NCBI GenBank assembly: GCA_029834535.1
Contig: JAQMWT010000334.1
Coordinates: forward strand, 1 to 64,000
From: Chrysophaeum taylorii
Lineage: Eukaryota; Sar; Pelagophyceae; Pelagomonadales; Pelagomonadaceae
Length of the DNA: 64,000 nucleotides
Reading direction: 5' to 3'
Shown here: positions 27,675-61,361 of the stretch, one piece after another
How positions within the stretch are numbered: position 1 is the stretch's first letter
How the letters are laid out: every line of letters begins with the position of its first letter
Program-made: the position numbers and the translations under genes
The notes under the pieces: generated by a model
What the model saw: the letters and a program-made list of their open reading frames with translations, nothing else
Told to the model about the DNA's origin: nothing
The model's database searches: none

Positions 27675-27833
27675 TTTTTCACTCCCAGACACACACACGT
27701 ACGCTCGTGTGTGAAGATGATCCACGACGACCACATTCAACGGACGTTTTTCCTTCCTTCCCTTCCCTTCCCTTCCCTTCCTTCCAACGGGTTTATTTAT
27801 TCATTTATTATTTGTGATGATGAACACCACGAT
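27675..27833. other. FBPase upstream region with (CCTT)n run
   Basis: A CTTCC/CCTTC run lies at about 27750-27783, followed by ATTTATTC. The right part is the 5' side of FBPase, the left part the 3' flank of the next gene. Confidence 0.4.
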
Positions 27834-29009
27834 TCATCTTCGCGTCGGCGTACGCTGCCCCGTGGGGGAGAAGCCCCCGGACTCGGTCTCGATCGCCACG
27901 CGCCGCGACCGCGCGTTGCTCTCCCGCTGCTCGCGCCGTCGACGCCGCCGCTCGGTCGGCGACACGCGGTCGTCGTCGTCGCCCTCCGGATCGGCGGCGA
28001 CTTGGCTTCGCCGCGGCCCTCGCGCCGGTTGTTGTTGCTGCTGGAAAAAGTTGCCGAAAGCGTTGTCGCCGATGACCCCCGTCTCGACGAGGGCCGCCGT
28101 GCGCCCGTTTGGGTTGTTGTTGTTGTTGTTGCCTTGGCGCCTCGCGTGGCGCCGCTTCTGGAGCATGGTCGCGTACCCGAGCTTGACGGCGCGGCAGTCC
28201 TGGAAGACCTGTGTCGACGAGTGTGAGTGAAGCAAGGATTTTTTGTTTCCAAGGGGAGGCGCCGGAGCATACGCCGTCAGGAAAGTGGCACGTGCCGGGG
28301 CTGTCGACCTCGCAGTGCGGGTAGTCGGGCGTGACCTCGATGCCGCAGCAATAGCAAAAATCGGTTCGTTCGCGGTTGCAGGGAAGCGGGTCGGTCGACT
28401 TGTGGACCATATGGTTGCACGTTTCCGGGTCGTCCTTCTCGATTATCTTGTAGCAGCCAGGACACCGTTGCGCTCCCTGGAGCTCGCGCCACTCCTCGAG
28501 CTGCACGTCGCCGCGCTCGTCGCACTGCACGCCCGGATGCCACGGGCACTTGCAGCGCACGCACCACCGGTACGCGCAGTACGGACACTGGACGAGCGGC
28601 TCGGCCGAGTCTGCCGGGAGATTGACAAAGCAACCGCACTTGAGGCAGTGCATGCCGTCGCCGAGTACCGACCGATCCGAGAAGTCCAAGAACTTGCGGT
28701 ACTCGGCGCGACCCAGCACGAGCCGCGCGAGCGCGTCGGCGATGGTCGTCTTGCACCCCGCGTGGTGCATCGGACACCGCAGCGGAAACATCGAAATGTC
28801 GCCGAGCGCAGCCTTGGCGTACATGCTGAGGCACGTCCGGCAGACCTCGTGGTTGCACTGGGCGAGACCAAAGACCTTGACTTTCTCGCCGTAACAGATG
28901 CTGCACGTTCCCTTTTTTAGCGTCAACGCAGTCCAGATCGCGTTGACCGCGGCGCCGTAGTGCCGCGCGTGCGCGAGCTGCGGCGCGATCGGCGACGGTC
29001 CCATGCCCG

Positions 29010-29040
<31 letters not shown>

Positions 29041-32000
29041 GCCGAACGGCATCTTGTAGTGGACCTTTGGTCGTCGCGTCTCGAGCCATCGAGCGTAGAA
29101 CACGAATCCGAGGCCGCTGGCGACGACCGCGGCACCGGCGACGCCAAGCGCGAGAACTACGAACACGGAAGGCCTGTTGTTGGATGAAGACGACTCGGGC
29201 GCGGCGTAGCTCGGGTCGTCCCAGCACGCCTCCGAAAGGTCTCGCGGTACCGAGATCGCGGGCCCGATTTCGAAAGAGACGCGCAAACTCGTTGCGTTAA
29301 ACGCCTCCTCGAAGCGCACGCCGGCCGTTTCGTTGGCGTCTAGCGCGAGCGTCAAGAAGATTCGGCCACATGTCGACGTCACAACGCGCCCGCGCTCGGC
29401 GCAGCACTCGGCCGCTCGCACTCCCGACGATGGAGCGGCGAGTGCCGCCGCCGCCGCCGCGGCCGCCGCGGCGTCGACGCACGATTCGCAAGCGAGCAAC
29501 GGCTCGCCGGCCGCGGACGATCCGGCGTAGATGTACAGGTTGACCCCCGGCGCAAGCGCGAGATTGTCGAGGAACTCGACGGATGCCTCCGCGGCGTCGT
29601 ACGTCGCCCCCTCGAGCGCCCACGAGCACGCGGACGCGGGTGGTACCTCGATCGTCCCGTAGCCCTGGCTCGTCGCGTTCAGAGCTGCCCTCGCGGCCGT
29701 CGTACCGTTGTAAAAGAAGACCTGTTGCCTCGAGGTCGTGCGAAAGTGGAGGTACGACGTGCGCGGATCCACAGGGAGCTCATCGCCGTTGCTTCGGAGG
29801 GCCACCTCGCTCGAATTGCTGCTGCTCCTCGAAGGACCGAGCAACGCGCCGCAGTGCTCGGCAAACGACGTCTCGAGCTCCCTTTGTCCGGACGCATCGT
29901 TGCCGTCGACGACGACGACCGACTCGCGGTAGGTGGGCGTCTCGCCGTCCGAAGCCGAATCTCCCCCCTCGAGCGGTAGCAAGGTTCCGACGGTTTTGTC
30001 GAACCGCAGGCTCCAAGATCCGTCTTCCGGCAGCATCGCCAAGTGCCAGAAACCGTCGTCGACGTGGGTGCGGAGGAGCAGTGGCAGCTCGTTTGGAAGT
30101 TGCGGCGCCTCGGTCGTCGCCGTGAAGTAGTGCGCGAGAAAGCCAGACCCGAGCGCGTTGTCGCGGGCGCCCGCTTCGGAGACGTAGACGACCCGCATCG
30201 AGCAATCGTCGACGACGACGTTAGAACACTCGAGCACCAAGGGGGGTGGTGAGGAGACGCAGGCTGCCGTGCACCGCCAGAGCAGGCGTCCGGTGGTCGC
30301 GTCCGTCACGTTTAACGTGCCCGCGGTACCGAGGTCGAGCCGCGGAAAGCGGAGAACAATCTGTCGGACGCCGAGCCCCGTCGGCGAGACGATCCAGTCG
30401 CACGACTCGCCCGCGCGCATTTTCTCCGCAGCCGCGGAGCCATCGGAGAACAGGAAGCTCGGCGCGCGGAGAATCGTACGAGTTCCCCCCGACCACGTGG
30501 TCGCCTCGGCGTCCAGAGTGCCGCCGCAGCCCGCTTGCGCGCGTTCCGAAAAGTAGGAGACGTCGAATCGACCCGCGGATACCGCGGCGCCGGTCTGCAG
30601 GCGCAACGTCATGGTAGGTCCGGAGGAGACGAGCCACGCGGTCGGGAGCGTGCTGCCGACGAAGACGGCCATCTCGTCGAGCGCCGCCGAGCCGTCGTAG
30701 ACCGTCAGGTTCGCGTCGTCGCCAAAATCCAAGGCCGAAAACGCGAGGGTGATCGTTTCGGCGCCGCCGACGTCGATGTACCAGTAATGGTCGAGGTTCG
30801 CCGAGAGGCTGGTTGGTGCCTGGATTGATGGCGCCGCCGCCGCGACGAGCGGCGCGGCGCGGTCGCCCATCCCGGTACTGTAGTATCGTGCTTCGAAGCC
30901 AGTTCCGAGGCTCGCGCCGACGGTCGTTTCCAGGTGGACGAAGAGCGTTTTGCCGGAAGAAGTGATGACGGGCGGTACCTCCTGGCACCCGGCGCATCGC
31001 CACAACATCGGCGCCGCGTCGTCGCTGCCGTCGAAGACCTCGAACACGGCTCCGACAAGGTCTACGCGCGCGAGCAAGAGCGTGATGCGCCCTCGCGCGG
31101 CGCGCGGCGCGATACGCCACGTGCAATCAGCACCACTCGGCATCTCGTCCGTCGGGCCCGAGCCGTCGGAGAAGATGAACGAGGGCGCCAGCAGCAGCCC
31201 CGGCTCGCGAACGTGTCCGCATCGATACTGGGGCGCGTCCGAATAGTAGCTGAATTCCAGAGAGCCCTCGGTCGTCGTCGTCGTTTTTTCCGCCGTCGTC
31301 GTCGTAACGGAGGATGTCTTCAATCGCAACGTCAGGAGACCCGATGTCGCGACGAGCCACTCGACGGGAGGGTTTGCGCTCGTGCAATCGTACGATGCCA
31401 GCAACTCGGGGGACCCGGCGAGGGCGTACGCCTGGTCCCAGTCGCCGCCGTCGTCGACTCGACCGAGGTAAACGTCGAGGACGTCCGCAGTGCAATTGCG
31501 CAGGTCGAGCTGGATGAACGCGAGGCGCACCGTGGTCGCGGGAGGCGAGATGATCCATCGATAATCGAGGTCGGGGGCATAAGAATTGGCGTCGGCGTCG
31601 ACAAAGGGGGCGCGGACGGACTCGACGGACCCGGCGAGGAGTACGACCGCGCTGGAACCTGCACCGCGCGCTGTGGTGTATGAGTCCGTCCAGTACATTG
31701 CACGCCAGCCGGTCCATTCGAGCGACGCGCCGGTATCGAGGTCCTGGTAGTAGGCGCTTCCGGCATCCGACGAGTATCGGACGAAGAGCGCCGCGCCGCT
31801 CGCCTCGAGAGGAGGCGGTGCAACTTCCTGGCATCCCGAGCAGTCCCAAAGTAAGGGCGCGGTCGCATCGTCGCCGTCGTAGACCCGGATCTCGCCGCCG
31901 GTGCGCTTGACGCTGACGCGAACCGGCACGAGCGTGAGCTTTGGCGCCCACGCGGAGGAGCCGTTAGAGTCTGGCGGCCAGACCAACGTCTCATCACTCC

Positions 32001-32979
32001 CAGCGTCGTTGTTGTCGTCGTCTAGAACGTGCGGCTTGATGAGCCACGAGCAATCGTCGATTTCCATTGCAGACTCCGAGCTGGAGCCGTCGGACAAGAT
32101 CATGGTTGGGCCTCGGCGCAGAGGAAGGTCGTCGGCCCCGCCCGCCTCGCCGCAGTTGCAGTAGCTCCCCAAATAGCAGCTCTGCGCGTCGGCAAAGATT
32201 CTTGCATAAAATGCGCCGATAGTAGAATTATCGTCGTCATCGTCGTCGTCGTCGTCGCTTTGTTTTGTCTCCAAGACCACGAGCATGGTCTCCCCCGTTG
32301 CCCGGATCCACGAGGAGTCGTCGCTCCGTTCGTCGACGTCGCCGCCCACCCAGGCCGCGAGCTCGGCATTGTTGTTGGTCGAAAGGCCGTCGTAGACGCG
32401 GATCTCGTCGCCCACTGGCAACCTAAGGGTCTCGACCATCAAGGTCAAGTCACACGGCGTTTCGCAGGCGTTGGGAGCGATTTTCCATTCGTAGGTGAGG
32501 CCGCGAGGTACGCGAGCGTCGATCGTTGGTGCCTCGAGCCAGGCCTGTCCCATGAATAAGTTGACCACATAGCGGCCCTGGGCGAGTTGTGCCGTGTAGG
32601 CGACGTACCGCACCCGAAAATAGGCCGTCGCCTCGAGCGGGGACCGGAAGGTGATGTGCCACGCGTCGAGGTTCGTCCTCGCGGGAGGCGGCAGGACGTC
32701 GTTGCAACGCAAGCACGACCACTCGAGGTTTTGGGTGGTGACCGCGTCCCCCTGGTACACGAAGAGTTCGGCCGTCGGGACGTAGAGATCTTCAAAGACG
32801 AGCAAGATGCCCTCGATCGACTCAGCGGTGGAGGCGGCAGGCTCGATGCGGAAAATGCACTGGTCGTTCGCCTCGAGGGGCGAGCTCGAGTAGTCCGAAG
32901 AGACCAGCGTCCCCGAGAGATCGGTCAGCCTCGCACCCGTGCAGGTCGCGGCGACGACGCGCACGATGGCGAGCCACAT
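27834..32979 (-). CDS. Giant CUB-repeat receptor with cytosolic RBR ubiquitin ligase
   Basis: About 1693 residues. Exon 1 is 28273-32979, the intron 28209-28272 (64 bp, GTATGC...ACACAG, phase 0), exon 2 27834-28208. A signal peptide leads to an extracellular part of about 1240 residues built of repeated CUB-like modules, in which a sub-type with Cys-x-x-Cys-x-x-Val-x-Pro-Pro and Ser-Asp-Gly-Ser motifs alternates with a sub-type without them (about eight modules). One membrane helix is near 1265-1290. The cytosolic part has RING1 (Cys-Ser-Ile-Cys...Cys-Asn-His-Glu-Val-Cys, near 1356), an IBR with paired Cys-x-x-Cys, and RING2 with the catalytic-type Cys in Thr-Cys-Asn-His-Met. The spliced tail is Asn-, Gln- and Arg-rich. 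Without splicing the frame reads through into an unrelated tail. I infer a surface receptor or adhesion protein coupled to ubiquitination. First ATG is at 32979. Confidence 0.82.
28209..28272 (-). other. 64-bp spliceosomal intron
   Basis: GTATGC donor, ACACAG acceptor, phase 0, in the 3' part of the CUB-RBR gene. After splicing, the frame continues with Val-Phe-Gln-Asp-Cys-Arg-Ala-Val-Lys and keeps the codon bias of the gene. Confidence 0.7.
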
Positions 32980-33071
32980 CCTCGGCGGCCGGCCGCGTAT
33001 CAAGACGATATCCTATCCTAGGGTTTTGTTTGTTTGTTTGTTTGTTTGTTTGATAGTTGTTTTTTTGCGCG
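32980..33071. promoter_or_regulatory. 92-bp head-to-head promoter with (TTTG)n run
   Basis: Lies between the ATG codons of the CUB-RBR gene and the HAD-like gene. It contains a TTTG repeat (about 33024-33051). Presumed to hold both promoters and both 5' UTRs. Confidence 0.45.
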
Positions 33072-52190: not shown

Positions 52191-52677
52191 ACGACTATAT
52201 GATGCTATAATAGTGCGCGATGTGCGACGACGACGCCAGACCGGAAAAAAACACCGCATAAAAAAAGCTTTGACCCTCTTTTGGAGCTATCGATACACTC
52301 ATAATCTCTCTCGCGCGCGCGGCACCGAACTCGGCAGTATGCCGCCGCCGCCGCTCACTACGTATGCCCTCTGGAACCGTCTTCATTCATTCATTCATTC
52401 ATTCTTTCCCCCTCGGAACGGCGGTGCGAAGCGACGGTCTCCTCCTCCTCCTCCTTCTTCTGGTGCAGTGCCAGAGCGAGAAGGTGGAGGAATTAAAAAA
52501 CAACAACCTCTCGCGTTGAGTTCAGTTGTGCGAACATACCGACGACAACAAGAATTGATCCCCCGAGGTGGTCGGTCGGTTCTATAGTTTACGCGGAGAT
52601 GGATGGATGGGATGGGATGGATGAATGACGTAGGCAAGTGATAAGTGTCGTTAATCCAAAAAGACTGGTGGTGCGGA
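52191..52677. other. Upstream region of the megasynthase gene
   Basis: No gene. An (ATTC)n run (about 52385-52406), a (TCC)n run (about 52440-52460) and a (GGAT)n-like run (about 52599-52620) lie here. Presumed to contain the promoter and 5' UTR of the NRPS/PKS gene; no core element is recognised. Confidence 0.4.
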
Positions 52678-55600
52678 ATGCATGGCGGGGCCCTAGTGTG
52701 TTTTCAGCCGCGGGCCGAGCCGGTGGCACGCGTCATATGCTTTCCCCACGCGGGCGGAGGCCCGCACGCCTTTGGGGAGCTGGGGTCGTTGTTTTCCGAC
52801 GCGATCGAGGTCCATGTGGTGAGCTACGCGGGTCGCGGCCAGCGGTTCGCCGAAGCGTTTGCTCCCGACGTGGAGACGGCGTCGCGCGAAGCGTACGCTG
52901 CGATTCGCGCCGTCGCGGACCGCCCCATCGTGCTGCTGGGCCACTCGTTTGGCGCGCTCCTGGCGTTCGACGTGGCAGCGAGGCTGGTTACGAACAACGA
53001 CGCGGTCGTCGTGCTACGCGTGTTCGCGTCGTCGTGCCCCGAGCCCCGGGCCGTCGCGCCGCGGCTGAGCGACCTGTCGGACGCCGACCTCGTGACAGCG
53101 CTCGCGTCGCGCGGGTGGTTGCCGGCGGCGGCGAGCGGGGGTGGGTCTGCGGGTCTCCTCGAGCACGCGCTTCCTCCGCTTCGCGCGGACCTCGAGCTTT
53201 ACGAACGATACGAGCCGCCGGAAACTGTCCCCAAGCTCAAAATCACCGCTCTGGGGGGGGAGCTAGACTCGTCGGTCCCCGTGGAAGAACTGGACAAGTG
53301 GCGGGCCTGGGCGGACGATTTCGAGGTTATAATCGTCGAGGGCGCGGGCCACTTTCACGTCGACTCGGACCGCGAGGAGCTCGCGGCGCGCTTGGAGACG
53401 ACCGTCGAGAGCGCGTTGGCGGGCCTCGCGAGCTCCGCGCTCGTCGGACCGAGGTTCGCGCCGCCGCCGACCATGAGTGAGCGCACCATCGTAGAGGTGT
53501 TGTGGCGGTTGGCGGCGGAGCGGCCCGACGATCCGGCGATTTTTGATCCGGGCAACGAGTCGGGCGCGTCGTTGTCGTTCGCGCGACTCAGGCGCGAGGC
53601 GCTCAAAGTCGCCGCCGGTCTGCCGATCGAAGAAGAACACAAAGGCGAGGTGGTGGCGGTCTACCTGCCACCTTCGGCAATCTACGTCGTCGCGAATTTA
53701 GGCGTCTTCCAAGCCGGGGCGGCCGTCGTGTACTTCGAAGTCAACTACACCACGGCTCTCATCGACCAGCTCCTCGACGCGAGCAGCGCGCGCTGCGTGC
53801 TGACCAACGCCAGACTCGAACCGAACCTCCCGGCCCGTGCCGACCGTCTCCTCCTAGATGTCCTTGATTATGGATGCGCAACATCATCGTCGACTCTGAC
53901 GGCGAAAAATGCGTACGACGGTCGTTTCGACCCGTCGGCGCTCGCGTACTGCTCCATGTCCTCGGGGACGACCGGCAAGCCCAAGGCAATATTAGTGGAC
54001 CACAAGGCCGTGTTTCACAACTACTTTGCCCGGGACGCGGTCTGCCCGTACGACCGCGATGACCGCGACGGCTGCAACATATTTTTCGTCTGGGAATCCC
54101 TCCGCGCGCCCGTTCACGGTTTAGAGATGGTCGTCGTGCCCGATTCGGTCGTGGTCGACGCGCGACGTCTCGTCGCCTTTCTCAAACAACACAAAATCAC
54201 GCGCACGATGCTGACCCCGAGCCTCCTCCGGAACATCCTCGACCAGCCTGGCTTGGATGCGAAACGGCACCTCGGACATATGCGCTACTTTTTTCTCCAA
54301 GGCGAGGTCGTGCCGCGCGCTCTCGTCGACGACTTTCGCGCAAAGTTTTCTTCTTCTTCTTTTTTACAAAAAAGAACGAGGCTCGTCAACTACTATAGCA
54401 CCTGGGAGTCCCTCGACGCGACCGCGGCTATCCTTTCGCCGGCGCCCGAGGAAAGCGGTTTCTTCTCGTCGGTCGCGCCGGTCGGAAAACCGCTTCCGGG
54501 AGTGTGCGTGCTCGTGGTGGACAGGTCGTCGGGTCGCGTCGTTCCGCGAGGAGTTCCGGGTTTTGTGTACGTGGTCGCGAGCTCCCTCGCGCGCGGATAC
54601 CTCGGAGACGACGAGAAGACGAAGGCGCGATTTTTCCCCTTATCGTCCCTCGCGGACCACCCCTCGACGCGCCGCGCCCTCGCTGCCGTCGAGACGCTTT
54701 TTTTGGAGGAGGACCCGTCTGTCCGGTGCTACGACACCGGCGACCGCGGCGTCGTCCTCGAGGACGGGAGCCTCGTGCTCCTGGGCCGCGCCGACAGCAC
54801 CGTCAAGATCCGCGGCTTCAAGGTCGCCCTCAACTACGTCGAAAACGCCGCTCTCGATTTTTCTCGAGTGAAAACGTGCGTCGTCAGACCAGTCCTCGAT
54901 CCCGAGACCCAGCAGCCGGTGGGTCTGGTCGCCTACGTCGTGCCCGCCACCCCCCAGAAGGAGGAGGAGGAGGAGGAGGAGGAGGGTGTTGTCAAGGCCG
55001 TCCGCGACCACCTCAAGGCGACGCTCCCCGAGTACGCCGTTCCCTCGCACGTCGTGGCCCTCGACGCGCTCCCCACCAAGCCGGGCTCGGGCAAGCTCGA
55101 CTACTCGCGCCTCCCGCCGCCAGCAGTGGATGATGTTGCTGTTCCCGTCGAGACGACGACGACGACGACCCCGCCAACAACTCCAACGTCGTCGTCGTCG
55201 TCCTCCTCCTCGTTTGGGCGCGTCGCAGCGCGCGAGATTAAGGCGGCCTTTGAGACGACGCTGGGCCGAGAGGTGGCGACCGAGGCAAACTTCTTCGAGC
55301 TCGGGGGACACAGCCTCCACGCGGCCAAGATCGTCGGCCAGGTCGCCGCCAAGCTCGGGGTCGAGCTCGCCGTCGTGGACCTGTTCGAGCGGCCCTCCGT
55401 CGAGGCCCTCGCAGCCCTCCTCGCCGACCGTCGCGGCGGCGGCGGGAACGCGCTACCTCGAGGAGGAGGAAGAAGAGACCACTTTTTGGTCGTCGAGGCG
55501 CAGCAGCAACCCAACTTGACGACGCCCCTCGCTGTTACGGGGGCGGCCTGCCTGCTGCCTGGCGCGGGCGACGTGGCCGAATTCTGGCGGAACCTGAACG

Positions 55601-58600
55601 AGTCCCGCGACTCGCTGACCGAGTTCTCGCTCGCCGAGCTCAAGGCGAGAGGCGTCCCGGACGCGGTCCTCTCGAACCCCGCGTTCGTGCCCAAGGCCCA
55701 GATGCTGCGGGGGGACGACGTCGTCGCCTTCGACGCCTTTTTCTGGGGTATTTCCGCGGCCGAGGCGCGCGTCATGGACCCTCAGCACCGCAAGCTTCTG
55801 GAGGTATCTTGGCGCGCGCGAGAGACGGCCGGAAAAGGAACGCGCAACGCGGAAGAGGCTTGGGGCGTCTTCGCGGCCGCGGGCATCGACGGCTACATGA
55901 TCCACCACCTCGAGGGCAAACCACTCCGCGACGCGAGCGATCCCGGCGCGATCTTCGCGGGCGAGGTCGGCTCGGAGAAAGACTACGCGCCGACGAGAGT
56001 TTCGTACCACCTCGGCCTCCGCGGGCCCTCGGTCGCCGTCAACAGCGCGTGCTCCTCGGCCCTCGTCGCCGCGGCGATGGCGGCGTACGCGATCACCGTC
56101 GGCGACTGCAAGGCGGCCATCGTCGGCGCCTCGTCCATCACGTTTCCAAACGCGGGCTACGTCTACGTCGACGGCCTCGTCGGCTCGGAGGACGGCGTCG
56201 TCCGGCCCCTCGACGCGCGCGCGACCGGCACCCTCTTCGGGGACGGCGTCGGCGCCTTCTGCTTCGAGGAGCAGGAGGCCGCCGGCGCGCGGGGCATCGC
56301 GGTCGTCCTCGGGGCGGCCGTGACGAACGACGGCCGTCTCAAGGCCGGCTTCGCCGCGCCCTCTCCCGACGCGCAGGCCGTCGCGATCGTGAGGTCGACG
56401 CGACGCGCGAAAGCCCGGCGCCTCGACGCCGTCGAGCTCCACGCGACGGCGACCAAGCTCGGCGACGCTATAGAAGTAGCTGGGCTTTCGCGCGCGTTGA
56501 AGGCCCTCGATGTTGCTGCTGCTGCTGCTGCCGAGGACGGCGGCGGCGGCGTCTTGTGCTTGGGCTCGGTCAAGGGCAACGTCGGCCACGCGAACTGCGC
56601 GGCGGGGTTTACGGGCCTGCTCAAGGCGTGCCTCGCCCTCGCTCACGCGCGGTTCCCCCCGACCGCGCATTTCCGGGAACTCAACCCGAAAATCCGCGGC
56701 GGCGGAATGCCGCCGAACGCGGTCGTCGTCGCCGGCGATTCGGCGGCGCTGCTGGGAAGAAACGACCGGACTCCTCTCCTCGCCGGGGTCTCGAGCTTTG
56801 GGGTCGGCGGCACGAACGCCCACCTCACGCTGTCGTCGGAGTTCTCTGTGCGGGACGCGGGCGGCTACTACGGCGAGGTTTTCGACGGCGAGGTTCGCGA
56901 GCCTAACAGCCGGCGACGCCCGCCGGTCGTCGCGTGGCGCGTGCCCGAAGACAGCCTGGAGACGCCGCGCGGCGCGGCCGCCAAGCCGGCGCTCGCGAGC
57001 GAGGCGGCCGCGGCGGCAACCCTCGCCGCGATGCGCGACGCGGCCGCCGCCGTCGGCATAAAAAGCAACAGCAAAAACAGCCCGGGCGTCAAGCCTATCT
57101 CGCGCGTCAACAGCCTCGACGCCTTAGTCGAAAGCCCGCGTCGCCGGCGGAGCGAGGTCGTGTGCCTCTCGGCCAAAACGGAGGCCTCGCTCGCGACGCT
57201 GGTCGAGGCTGTCGCCGAGTTTCTTCGCAGACGCGACGACGACGACGACGTCTCGTTGTCGGACGTGGCCAGGACGCTCCAGGAGGGCCGCGAGGAGTTC
57301 CGCGAGTGGCGCGTGGCCGTAAACGCGACGACCAAGGCCGAGGCCGCGACCGAGCTCGAAGCGGCTTCCCGCGTCCCGGCGCCGAAGCGACGAAAGAGCG
57401 AGGTCTGCCTCGAGCTCGGCGCTTCGCGGGTCCCGATCCGCCTCGGCGCGGGCCGCGCTCTTTTCGAGACGCACGCCGAGTTCCGGGCTCGGCTCCAGGC
57501 GTGCGCGGCCGTCGTCGACGCTCCGCTCCGCCAGCTTCCGTCGAACGGCGCGACGGCTGCGCCGGACGGCCTCCTCGACGCCCTCGGCTATGCCGTCGAC
57601 CGCGCCGACTTTAGGCCCGACGAGGCGGCGACCTTTGCCGCGCACGGCCGCAGCTCGCGGATCGCCGCCCAGGCGGTCTTGTCGAGGCCCGCCGTTTCCG
57701 AGCCGGCGACCTTCTCGCTCCTCTACGCCCTCGCTGCCTGCTTTTTGACGGACGGCCGCCTCGTCTTTTTCTCCTCTTCTTCCTCCGGAGAGGAGGAGAG
57801 GGCGCCCTTCTTCGCCGCCATCGCCGGCCGCGGCGTCGGCCAGCTCGTCGCCCTCGCTCTCGACGGCGGCATCGCCCTCGACGACGCGCTTCTGCTCTGT
57901 TGCGAGCGCGGCCGTCTCCTCGAGGAGGAGGAAGAAGAAGAAGAAGAAAAACTTCTTCTTCTCGAGCAGTACGTGGCCGCTCGCGTCGCCGACCAGCCCG
58001 CGTACCTCGAGCCCCCGCGTCGCGCGGCCGTCGCCGACACCGTCTCCGGGGGGTGGCTCTCCTCGTTCGACGTCAAGGACCCGGCCTACTGGGGCCTCCA
58101 GTTGGCCAAAAAGGACGACGACGACAACTGGGACGCCGCTACTGCGGCCTTGGCGAGATGGGAGCCCGCACTAATCCTGAGCGTTGACATTTCTTTCGAC
58201 AAATTTTTTGAAGAGGAGAGGTCCTTTTCTGTCGTCGCGCGGTGCGACGCGAGCGACGTAACGCGGGCCCTCGCGGTCGCGTGGTGCGCGGGGCTTACGG
58301 TCGACTGGCGCGCCGCGCGCCGCTCGGCCCGCGGGACAGCCTCGCGAGCGCGAGAGCCCAGATTTGTCGCGGGCGTCCCCGGCTACGCGTTCGCCCGAAC
58401 GACGCACTGGGTCAACCCTTTAGCTTCGGTCTACGCCCCCCCGCCGCCGCCGCCGCTTCCGCCGCCGCCGCGTAGGAAGAAGAAGAAGAAGAAAGAGGCC
58501 CCCCTCCTAAGATCAGCAGCAGACTCTTGTCTCGTCGTTGTGACGCCACAGAAGTCGTCGTCGCCCAAGCGAGCGCGGCTCGTGTGCGCTGCGTACGCGG

Positions 58601-60706
58601 GCGGATCGTCCAAGGTGTTCTCGTCCTGGGCCGCCGCGGCGCCGCCGTGGCTCGAGGTCGCGGCGATCGAGATGGCCGGACGCGGCGCTCGCGCCGACGA
58701 ACCCCTTCCGAATTCGGACGAGGACGACGAGGTGCACCGCGAGTCCGTCAGAAAAGCGATTTCTCGCTTGGATCCGCTTCCGTGGGCCCTCGTCGGCCTG
58801 AGCGCGGGAGCGCTTCTCGCGATCGAGTTGTACAAAATTCTCGACGCTCCCGCCCGCGACGCGCTCCGGTGCGTCTGCCTCGCCGGACGCGGCTTTCCTT
58901 CTTTGGGAACATCAATCCCCGACGACGACGAGATTTTCGAGACCTACGCGCTCGCGCCTCGAGCCGTGTTGGAGAGCGCCGCTTTCCGAAAAGTTGCGCT
59001 CCCGCGGCTCCGCTCGGACCTCGCCGCCGACGCGCGCGCGGCCGCGAGGGTGGTCCTAAACCCGCCTTCTCTCAACGTTCCTCTTCTGATTTTCGGGGGC
59101 CTCGACGACCCCTCCTTTCCCCCGACCGACGCGACCAAGTGGCGCGATGCCCTCTCGCCCCCTTCCCTGAGCGCGCGCTTCGTCCCCGGTGCCCACGACT
59201 TCCTCGCATCCTGCGCCGACGCGATCATCCCGGACCTCGTCCAATTCTTTGGAGGTGGCTGTCGTCCTACTTGTGATGATGATGATGAAGAAGAAGAGCT
59301 CCCGCTCTACGAGGTCCGCTGGGAGCACGCCGGAATCGTCATCATCGAGGAATCTCCGCAGCAGGAGCTCGACGCGATGATCCCGGCAACGCGTCTCGAG
59401 GATATCAGGCGAAATCTGCTGGAGGAGGGCGACGACGAGATCGTCGAAGAGACGGCCCGCTTCGCAGCTAAAACCGGGTCGCTCGTCCTCGACGCGCTCG
59501 CCTGCGGCTACGACGACTCGTGGCTCGATCGCGACGAGGCCGACGCCTGGGCCCTCGTTTGCGTGCTGAGGGCCGTGGCCGAGACCGACGCCCCCGTCTT
59601 CTGCACGCTCGTATCCCGCGCTTCGCCCCGCGGCGCCCTCGCCGCCGGCGCTTCCAAGTGCGCACCCTACGAAGGTCGACTCGTAGGAGTCCGCCGCGTC
59701 TACTTGCTGGGACTCGACGACGACGACCTGGGCGACGCAAACCTAGCGAACGGCGCGGCCCGCGCCGCGGCGCTCGCGGCCCCCAGAGACCTCGACGTCC
59801 TTCTGACGCCCGGACCCGACAACAACGGATGGCGCGCCGCAGTCCCGCGCGCCACGCTCAAAAAACCGGAGCATCGTCGCCGGCGCTCGGACGACGCTTC
59901 GGCGGCCGCCGCAGCCGCGCGATGGCTTCGCGCGAAGAAGACGACAACCCTCGTCACCGGCGCGACCGGCGGCCTCGGCGCGGCCCTCGTCGAGTGGCTG
60001 CGCGATTCCGTCGGCGCGAACAACCTCCTCCTGCTCGGGAGAAGGAGCAACGGCTCCAACCACGTCGCTTGCGAGTCCGTAGGCGACCCCGACGCCCTCG
60101 ACGCTGCTTTGGAGGCCTACCCAAAAAACATCGGCGCCGTCTTCCACCTCGCCGGCGCGCTCCGCGACGCGACCATCGCCACCATGGACCGCGACGCCTT
60201 CGGAGTTCCTATTTACCCCAAGGCCCGCGGCCTCGCGGCAATTCGAACGGTGGCCGCCAGACGACGATGGCCAGTTCGCGCCATCGTCGCCTACTCGAGC
60301 ACCACCAGCCTCTACGGCTTTGGCGGCCAGTCCAACTACAGCGCGGCAAACACCTTCGTCGATCATCTCGCCGACTGGGACGACGACCCCTCTAAGCCTC
60401 CAGTCGTCGCGATCCATTGGGGACCTTGGGCCGACGCCGGCATGGCCAAAAGGGGCACCAAGGCCCACTCCTTCGCCCTCCGCTTCGGCGACGCACCCCT
60501 CGCCACAGACGAGGCCCTCCGCTGCCTCGCCTTTGCCCTCGGACCCGCGCCCTCGCGCTTCGCCGCCTTCAAGGTTGCCAACTGGGACAGGTCTCCCTGG
60601 AAATCCCTCGCGGTGAGACTACGAGCGCCTTTTTCACTCCTGGTGAAAAAAATAATCACAAAAACGCAGGCGACCGACCACCTCGTCCTCATCCCTGGAA
60701 AAAACC

Positions 60707-60740
<34 letters not shown>

Positions 60741-61078
60741 TGTTCCGCGCGTCACAGAGGACGAGGACGACGACGACGATGGATCGTCAAATCCTAAAGA
60801 CGCCGTCGAGCTCTTTCTGAGAGCACGCGTCTCGGAGTGGCTCCCGGACGCGACGCTGGACGCCCTCGGCCTCGACTCCCTCGACTTCGCGCAGATGCGT
60901 GCCCAGGCGGTCGACCTCTTCGGCCGGCCCGTCCCCCTCGCCCTCTTTTCCACCCCCGACCGTCAGTTATACTTATTCCCGTCTGAATTTATTTTTACCA
61001 CCGCATATCTCAGGCACGCTCGCCGACCTCGCCGCCGCCCTCCGCAATCACCTCGACTCCGCCACCACCGACGAATAA
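52678..61078 (+). CDS. Hybrid NRPS/PKS megasynthase, TE-A-T-KS-AT*-TE-KR-ACP
   Basis: 2782 residues. Exon 1 is 52678-60961, the intron 60962-61013 (52 bp, phase 1), exon 2 61014-61078. Domains: type II-like thioesterase (about 15-255, Gly-His-Ser-Phe-Gly with Ser90, later Gly-Ala-Gly-His); adenylation (266-812: Ser-Ser-Gly-Thr-Thr-Gly-Lys-Pro-Lys, Tyr-Asp-Thr-Gly-Asp, final Gly-Ser-Gly-Lys-Leu-Asp); carrier with Ser879; ketosynthase (946-1387: Cys1125, His1255, His1304); an acyltransferase-like region (about 1500-1920) with Gly-Arg-Gly-Val-Gly where Gly-His-Ser-x-Gly is expected; a second thioesterase (about 1966-2195, Ser2042 in Gly-Leu-Ser-Ala-Gly); ketoreductase (Gly-Ala-Thr-Gly-Gly-Leu-Gly near 2428, Tyr-Ser-Ala-Ala-Asn near 2554); terminal carrier with Ser2734. 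No condensation, DH, ER or MT. No signal peptide. It likely makes one adenylation-primed, once-extended beta-hydroxy product. First ATG used; upstream frame lacks ATG. Confidence 0.9.
60962..61013 (+). other. 52-bp intron near the 3' end of the megasynthase
   Basis: Donor C|GTCAGT, acceptor ATCTCAG|GC, AT-rich interior. Splicing gives Thr-Pro-Asp-Arg-Thr-Leu-Ala-Asp-Leu-Ala-Ala-Ala-Leu, the normal last helix of a carrier domain, then a stop at 61076-61078. Unspliced, the frame reads on to 61251 into a hydrophobic, Arg-rich tail without carrier character. Confidence 0.75.
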
Positions 61079-61361
61079 TTTTACTTCTTGTTGTAATATG
61101 TTACTTACTTCCTTACTTCTTCGCCTACAAAATCACGCCGGGGATCACTGCGCCACCTCCATTCATGGTACACGCAACGTCACGTTGCGCATGTCCGGCC
61201 CCAACAACGACACGACGCGCGAACTATCTTTTGGTTGGAATTTGGATTTAAATTTAACGCCTTCTGCCTCAAAAGCTTTAAACTCGAACGGCACGAGTTG
61301 TGGCAGGCACCACACCGCGGGAGAGCCACGCGCACGTGGAATGGCCGCAAGTGGGGAAAAT
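61079..61361. other. 3' flank of the megasynthase, nothing seen
   Basis: Short intergenic stretch without coding or structural signal. Confidence 0.35.

Follow-up and report, generated by a model that had tools for sequence, protein, structure and literature searches.

BurA, the synthase of the malleicyprol pathway in Burkholderia, makes gonyol from dimethylsulfoniopropionate (DMSP) and malonate and was the first enzyme reported for gonyol, at a time (2020) when the enzymes for algal gonyol were termed unknown (PMC7496086). It was shown that the adenylation (A) domain of BurA activates DMSP with a KM of 0.15 mM, and that it has no D235 but a shorter hydrophobic loop and an acid, D606, in position to contact the sulfonium; E. 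coli carrying burA and fed DMSP was found to form gonyol (PMC7496086). Dinoflagellate sequences similar to Burkholderia burA were described with the order thioesterase (TE), adenylation, carrier (PP, here also T), ketosynthase (KS), acyltransferase (AT), thioesterase, ketoreductase (KR) and carrier, printed as TE-A-PP-KS-AT-TE-KR-PP (PMC7159223), and burA-like genes are also discussed in PMC6722697 and PMC9500876. Here we analyzed a megasynthase gene, CTAYLR_002502, of the pelagophyte Chrysophaeum taylorii, which lies in the first 64,000 nucleotides (the window) of contig JAQMWT010000334.1, a contig of 376,224 bases in assembly GCA_029834535.1. We consider it reasonably probable that its product is a pelagophyte synthase of the BurA family, which loads DMSP, adds one malonate and reduces the product to gonyol; the malonate is likely supplied in trans because the protein's own AT is without catalytic residues.

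Pfam, profiles built in the analysis and an alignment of catalytic residues agree on the order TE-A-T-KS-AT relic-TE-KR-T, which the original prediction had read from motifs. The Pfam annotation it had proposed as a check gave, over curated cut-offs, TE in two stretches (the best at aa 18-240), A at 277-642 with its C-terminal part at 721-800, PP-binding in two stretches, KS at 950-1332, the KS-AT linker and KR at 2423-2586, while no AT family was matched. Our profiles recover TE1, A, T, KS, the KS-AT linker, a 350-residue AT-like part, TE2, KR and T. The meanings of the catalytic motifs are textbook knowledge, and by alignment the catalytic residues are intact in every domain except the AT. 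The best solved-structure matches of TE1 and TE2 are the same, the 6vap thioesterase and RifR, and the TE1 nucleophile serine is kept in 28 of the 28 family rows that have letters in its column, the other 9 of 37 having partial or missing N-termini.

The original prediction further held that this order is undescribed and that no characterised enzyme has such a layout. Neither claim survives: the order was printed for the dinoflagellate synthases and recurs in numerous bacteria and algae, and BurA is a characterised enzyme of this kind, its layout being judged from its relatives rather than from its own sequence. In our protein set of 121 (the query and 120 matches listed, given here as P numbers) the exact order TE-A-T-KS-AT-TE-KR-T occurs in 26, of which 5 are pelagophyte-clade rows and 21 are others; two more have a doubled last carrier, giving 28, and nine more are shorter forms. 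Among these matches the order is carried by Noviherbaspirillum, Aquabacterium, Burkholderia, Eleftheria, Saccharothrix and Agrobacterium vitis on the bacterial side and by the haptophyte Prymnesium parvum (P0020) and the dinoflagellate Amphidinium massartii (P0025) on the algal side, with Effrenium and Durusdinium as shorter forms. As to the ochrophytes and haptophytes, whose genomes the original prediction had proposed to search, the matches listed show the order in the pelagophyte clade and in P. parvum. Haptophyte, dinoflagellates and pelagophytes are all present, and a named diatom is absent among the matches listed, the lists being restricted by protein size. In the open-licence literature the order string was found in PMC7159223 only. 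Novelty of the domain order is therefore rejected, on the published dinoflagellate order and on the 21 listed proteins outside the pelagophyte clade; a described synthase with the same order is just what the original prediction had named as evidence against itself.

In an A-to-KS tree of 40 rows (P0002, P0048 and P0080 were left out) a single branch with support 100/100 holds all 34 family rows and P0106, which is TE-A-T-KS-AT only, so that bacteria, a haptophyte and dinoflagellates all have members in the clade of the C. taylorii gene. Inside it, C. taylorii, Pelagophyceae sp. CCMP2097 (P0007) and four environmental sequences (P0003-P0006, assigned by the tree) form a pelagophyte clade, also at 100/100, whose 7 rows represent 6 loci since P0001 and P0002 are the same locus. 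This clade lies apart from the haptophyte and dinoflagellate branch (99/97) and beside two other sequences (91/83), which fits separate acquisitions by the algae, the deepest forks being weak. Just outside the family sits P0083, TE-A-T-KS-AT-KR-T without an internal TE, which may represent the state before TE2 was gained.

The Burkholderia relatives P0013 and P0014 share with the C. taylorii gene both the eight-domain order and the A-domain signature, and the identity to P0014 is 39% in A and 48% in KS. The A domain carries a putative zwitterion-loading signature of BurA type, which the original prediction had missed. The acid of the D580 column is found in 34 of the 35 A domains of the family, against 2 of 124 others, and no other column reaches 90% acidic residues in the family while staying below 15% in the others. 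The motif YS[STC]WE..D, to which D580 belongs, is found in 34 of 35 against 1 of 124, and the A4 motif [NS][VIA][FM][FL]xWE in 35 of 35 against 2 of 124; FDxS anywhere in the domain is found in 3 of 35 against 72 of 124. These counts cover the 37 family rows without P0048 and P0080, whose A domain is partial or missing, and P0123 is counted apart; the 124 others are the top matches of the same searches and not a random sample. C. taylorii has both the family-specific acid and a hydrophobic A4 loop replacing the D235 loop, with D235 judged by motif, and the D580 signature is in line with the published description of the BurA A domain.

The AT sets the pelagophyte proteins apart from the other family rows. 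Where 30 of 30 other family rows have the catalytic motif GHSxG, the 6 loci (7 rows) of the pelagophyte clade all have GRGVG; their alignments also show an altered GQGSQ loop and lack the segment that would carry the catalytic His. The AT of P0013 and P0014 carries GHSIG, that of P. parvum P0020 (AB1Y20_015089) is intact with GHSIGEF and AYHT, and the dinoflagellate synthases, which form a separate clade from the pelagophytes, keep GHSLG...AFH (PMC7159223). A functional cis malonyl AT (GHSxG ... AFH) is thus not what the C. taylorii protein has, and because this cis AT is nonfunctional by sequence we place the gene as a variant of the BurA family by descent and order rather than as a fully equipped member. 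The region can still be called an AT, based on the alignments and on a profile comparison in hhalign (E 2.5e-37, from one comparison with a thin pelagophyte profile). Between C. taylorii and P0003, P0004 and P0005 the dead AT is 60-61% identical, compared with 63-66% in A, 66-71% in KS, 54-59% in KR and 46-55% in TE2; in the comparisons with P0006 and P0007 the values are 51 and 50% for the dead AT and 53 and 50% for KR (P0007 was omitted from one pseudo-AT alignment and its AT segment compared separately). Its identity values fall among those of the working domains, which suggests that selection maintains the pseudo-AT, perhaps for a structural role or for docking. The AT is unlikely to be decaying at random, given an identity within the range of its neighbours and a loss common to the whole clade. 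Searched alone, the pseudo-AT region returned P0002-P0007 and one weak ordinary polyketide synthase (PKS; P0122, E 2.7e-4) and no further carrier, in a search that scored candidates sharing words and of similar length. From these comparisons the dead but conserved AT seems to be a new feature and specific to the pelagophyte lineage. Structure prediction of the pseudo-AT gave a mean pLDDT (predicted local distance difference test) of 37.6 over 7 sequences and was not used. Polyglutamate and polyaspartate runs stand at the site of the missing AT small subdomain and ahead of the terminal carrier.

In trans-AT PKS modules with an AT docking remnant there is no working cis AT and malonate comes from a discrete AT. 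Unlike such remnants, the C. taylorii protein keeps a nearly full-length, conserved AT core minus one subdomain. The C. taylorii assembly that we searched (70.8 Mb in 697 contigs) holds a discrete, intact FabD-like gene with an N-terminal extension and the motifs GQGAQ, GLSLGEY and GAFHTDFM (C191:10840-11844, in our locus numbering L033:1340-2344), so that a discrete malonyl transferase is present in the same genome, as are other AT-family genes. The genome also has 12 TE matches, two of which are those of the megasynthase itself. The succession of pseudo-AT and TE2 was not found by domain profiles in 6 other TE loci (L002-L006 and L008) and 12 AT loci (L009-L020), each of 3-4 kb, with 4 weaker TE and 2 weaker AT matches outside the scan. 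Domain structures have been published for 12 type I PKSs of C. taylorii that depart from canonical arrangements; the most frequent type among them is trans-AT with an A-like domain at the N terminus (PMC10366177).

A mechanism that fits these data would start at the A domain, with DMSP (or a close zwitterion) adenylated there and loaded onto T1, as the shared pocket signature and the biochemistry of BurA suggest. The KS, whose residues are present, would then accept the acyl unit for condensation with malonyl-T2; T2 would be loaded by a discrete FabD-like transacylase such as the C191 gene, the cis AT having by sequence neither the Ser nor the His segment. The KR, with its residues in place, would reduce the beta-keto group to the 3-hydroxy acid, and one of the two TEs, either of them, would release the product while the other would clear mis-primed carriers, both resembling RifR-like type II TEs. 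The original prediction had likewise suggested a one-module machine extended in trans; that part agrees with BurA biochemistry and with the dead AT, and only its novelty of layout falls.

The bacterial relatives bring evidence from their neighbourhoods. One scan of bacterial and archaeal genomes found 11 loci. Each encodes a protein of 2575-2720 residues that shows the eight domains in the same order, both the YSTWE..D and the A4 motif, and an AT with GHSxG (GGHSIGE in L022). In the bur pathway DMSP is supplied by a SET methyltransferase, a decarboxylase, a transaminase and a dehydrogenase (PMC7496086), and in the bur cluster, which includes a ketol-acid reductoisomerase (KARI), the dioxygenase acts after gonyol (PMC9359912). 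Neighbours were counted by tblastn, because the caller of open reading frames also lists spurious antisense frames. A SET methyltransferase was found at 5 of the 11 loci, a TauD-type dioxygenase at 7, a class III aminotransferase at 7 and a pyridoxal-phosphate (PLP) decarboxylase at 2; KARI, a flavin adenine dinucleotide (FAD) oxidoreductase and a 436-residue protein occur together at 6. At least one gene of DMSP-supply type is present at 7 of the 11 (an aminotransferase fragment of 27 residues at the L025 edge is uncounted, and L024, L027 and L029 are bounded by contig ends). The protein of about 436 residues has no Pfam match and adjoins the synthase (L028:16571-17878, and also in L025, L027, L029, L030 and L031). 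In the Agrobacterium vitis locus a KARI-type protein and a tRNA_edit (aminoacyl-tRNA editing) domain share one frame (L031:7077-8615).

The distribution of DMSP and gonyol in algae points in the same direction. Tested pelagophytes, including Chrysocystis and Chrysoreinhardia, contain 14-234 mM DMSP (PMC11306096), and these two genera belong to the same family as C. taylorii (PMC10366177). In one survey gonyol was found in 4 of 4 haptophytes and 3 of 3 dinoflagellates, including P. parvum and Amphidinium carterae, and in 0 of 8 diatoms and 0 of 1 cryptophyte, with no pelagophyte in the survey (PMC7221440). The synthase family is present in the gonyol-positive groups, in P. parvum and A. massartii, and as far as the matches listed go its distribution over haptophyte, dinoflagellates and pelagophytes matches the gonyol pattern. 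In particles of the surface ocean gonyol reaches up to 2.5 nM and is among the most abundant compounds measured (PMC8269262). A search of the open-licence literature (subscription journals lie outside it) gave no paper in which a burA-like gene of an alga is connected with gonyol; gonyol together with a polyketide synthase was found there only in three Burkholderia papers, and together with burA likewise; the accessible text of PMC7159223, the source of the dinoflagellate order, mentions neither gonyol nor DMSP.

Several points weigh against a DMSP-loading gonyol synthase. D580 (D585 in Burkholderia P0014) is inferred to be the D606 of BurA, with an offset of about 21 residues and with BurA itself outside the alignment; P0007 has a gap at this position, and the further relative P0123 has the acid without the YSTWE motif. 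The loss of D235 is read from the changed motif since the column at I468 is not clean, showing no D among the commonest non-family residues either. In C. taylorii the pocket string reads IFW-FLQ-Y-DA, whereas bacteria usually have VFW-FLM-A-DV and dinoflagellates VMW-xxC-D-DV. On the side of the loci, L025, L027, L029 and L030 have only the KARI-type set within reach, and the KARI could be an ordinary one. Around the C. taylorii gene no bur-type gene is among the 10 window frames scanned with Pfam, and none was recognised in the frames to about 9 kb downstream, which were inspected without a family scan. The C191 FabD-like gene could load the terminal carrier, a pairing that is putative. Finally, no report of gonyol in a pelagophyte was found in the open-licence literature: no paper there names gonyol together with Pelagomonas, the accessible texts of PMC8269262 and PMC7221440 do not mention pelagophytes, and PMC10349084 names gonyol in its reference list only.

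One question that follows from the pocket is whether the same machine loads another zwitterion, such as glycine betaine, dimethylsulfonioacetate or another betaine, and makes a different 3-hydroxy zwitterion, which from glycine betaine would be carnitine. Residues are named here by positions 235, 301, 322 and 330, which we take to be those of GrsA, transferred by motif. At the position corresponding to 301 C. taylorii has Q, the other pelagophyte-type rows E and most bacteria M, and at that corresponding to 322 it has Y, against A in most bacteria and a second acid in most dinoflagellate rows. Because the pocket differs from the bacterial one at these two positions, including from P0014, another zwitterion is a live rival, and pocket features are also common with the glycine-betaine-loading A domain of ATRR (PMC7496086). 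We nevertheless regard it as unlikely, as DMSP-supply-type genes adjoin 7 of the 11 bacterial loci, the tested pelagophytes are rich in DMSP (PMC11306096), and gonyol occurs in the haptophytes and dinoflagellates, groups that have the family (PMC7221440). Another option is a PKS for chrysophaentin-type or other specialised products, whose starter, an aromatic or amino acid, would be loaded by the A domain; the authors of the genome proposed that N-terminal A domains of C. taylorii PKSs could load cinnamate-type starters (PMC10366177), yet D580 and a signature common to bacteria, haptophyte and dinoflagellates favour a substrate of BurA type, which makes this option very improbable. The least probable is a decaying gene, in which the lost AT residues and the polyglutamate and polyaspartate runs in the linkers would mark a whole synthase heading to loss without any product, since the remaining catalytic residues are all present and the dead AT is shared throughout the 100/100 clade (6 loci), with an identity between C. 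taylorii and each of P0003-P0005 above that of KR and TE2 and below that of A and KS.

Within the preferred reading, a BurA-type synthase for gonyol, a more specific and rather doubtful proposal is that pelagophytes make gonyol through their own trans-AT BurA, in which the dead, conserved AT would act as the platform where a shared malonyl transferase of FabD type docks. The features of the gene are collected in Table 1.

Table 1. Features of the C. taylorii megasynthase gene, in positions of the window
Feature	Position	Strand	Basis or detail
Whole gene, predicted BurA-type megasynthase CTAYLR_002502	52678..61078	+	exons 52678-60612, 60670-60961, 61014-61078
TE1, type-II-like thioesterase, triad S90/D197/H225	52711..53427	+	PF00975; residues by alignment
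Adenylation domain, putative BurA (zwitterion) type: A4 loop NIFFVWE, D580 in YSTWESLD, K806	53461..55167	+	
Loading carrier T1, S879	55210..55452	+	PF00550; alignment
Ketosynthase, C1125, H1255, H1304, K1299	55510..56862	+	PF00109/PF02801; alignment
KS-AT linker, RhiE/CurL-like	57145..57402	+	PF22336/PF22621
Pseudo-AT, conserved, dead: GRGVG (G1719 at 57832) for GHSxG; His small subdomain absent	57403..58512	+	
TE2, internal type-II-like thioesterase, S2042/D2144/H2173, between AT remnant and KR	58540..59277	+	match 58576-59151
KR and preceding structural half; K2515, S2541, Y2554, N2558, TGATGGLG	59275..60597	+	PF08659
Terminal carrier T2, S2734	60775..60961	+	profile match aa 2708-2761

The gene lies in an open frame at 52645-61251 (+) of 2868 codons, the longest of all in the window, and its first ATG at 52678 gives 2857 residues. 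The codon-position bias of the frame is strong, with a GC content of 0.82 at third positions (GC3) against 0.51 at second positions (GC2). The public gene model P0002 has 2763 aa and is 99% identical to the frame by alignment, the visible differences being two small introns at the 3' end and the resulting last exon. It implies a GT-AG intron of 57 bases, in frame, at 60613-60669 and a second GT-AG intron at 60962-61013, both near the 3' end; because of these introns residues 2646-2664 of the raw frame and those beyond about 2761 are taken as intron or downstream sequence. The model stops at the gene end which the original prediction had given. As for the other genes, a Pfam scan of 10 window frames left 4 without a match; the other 6 have matches (CUB/IBR, FWWh, NADAR, nucleotide-sugar transferase, HIT zinc finger and eIF2B/NTP-transferase-like). 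One of them, a frame of 1731 residues at 27808-33003 (-), combines CUB with IBR/RING-type matches, which is an unusual pairing.

The C. taylorii gene would offer a direct, single-enzyme test of the link between an algal burA-like gene and gonyol, in a class that is rich in DMSP. Among its closest counterparts are the burA-like synthases of dinoflagellate hosts (PMC7159223, PMC6722697 and PMC9500876), with the same order in print (PMC7159223), and the P. parvum protein combines that order with the A motifs in a host that produces gonyol (PMC7221440). The conserved dead AT may be seen as a natural experiment on how a cis-AT module turns into a trans-AT one, and the docking-platform reading, if true, would give both an enzyme behind algal gonyol and a new use for a pseudo-acyltransferase.

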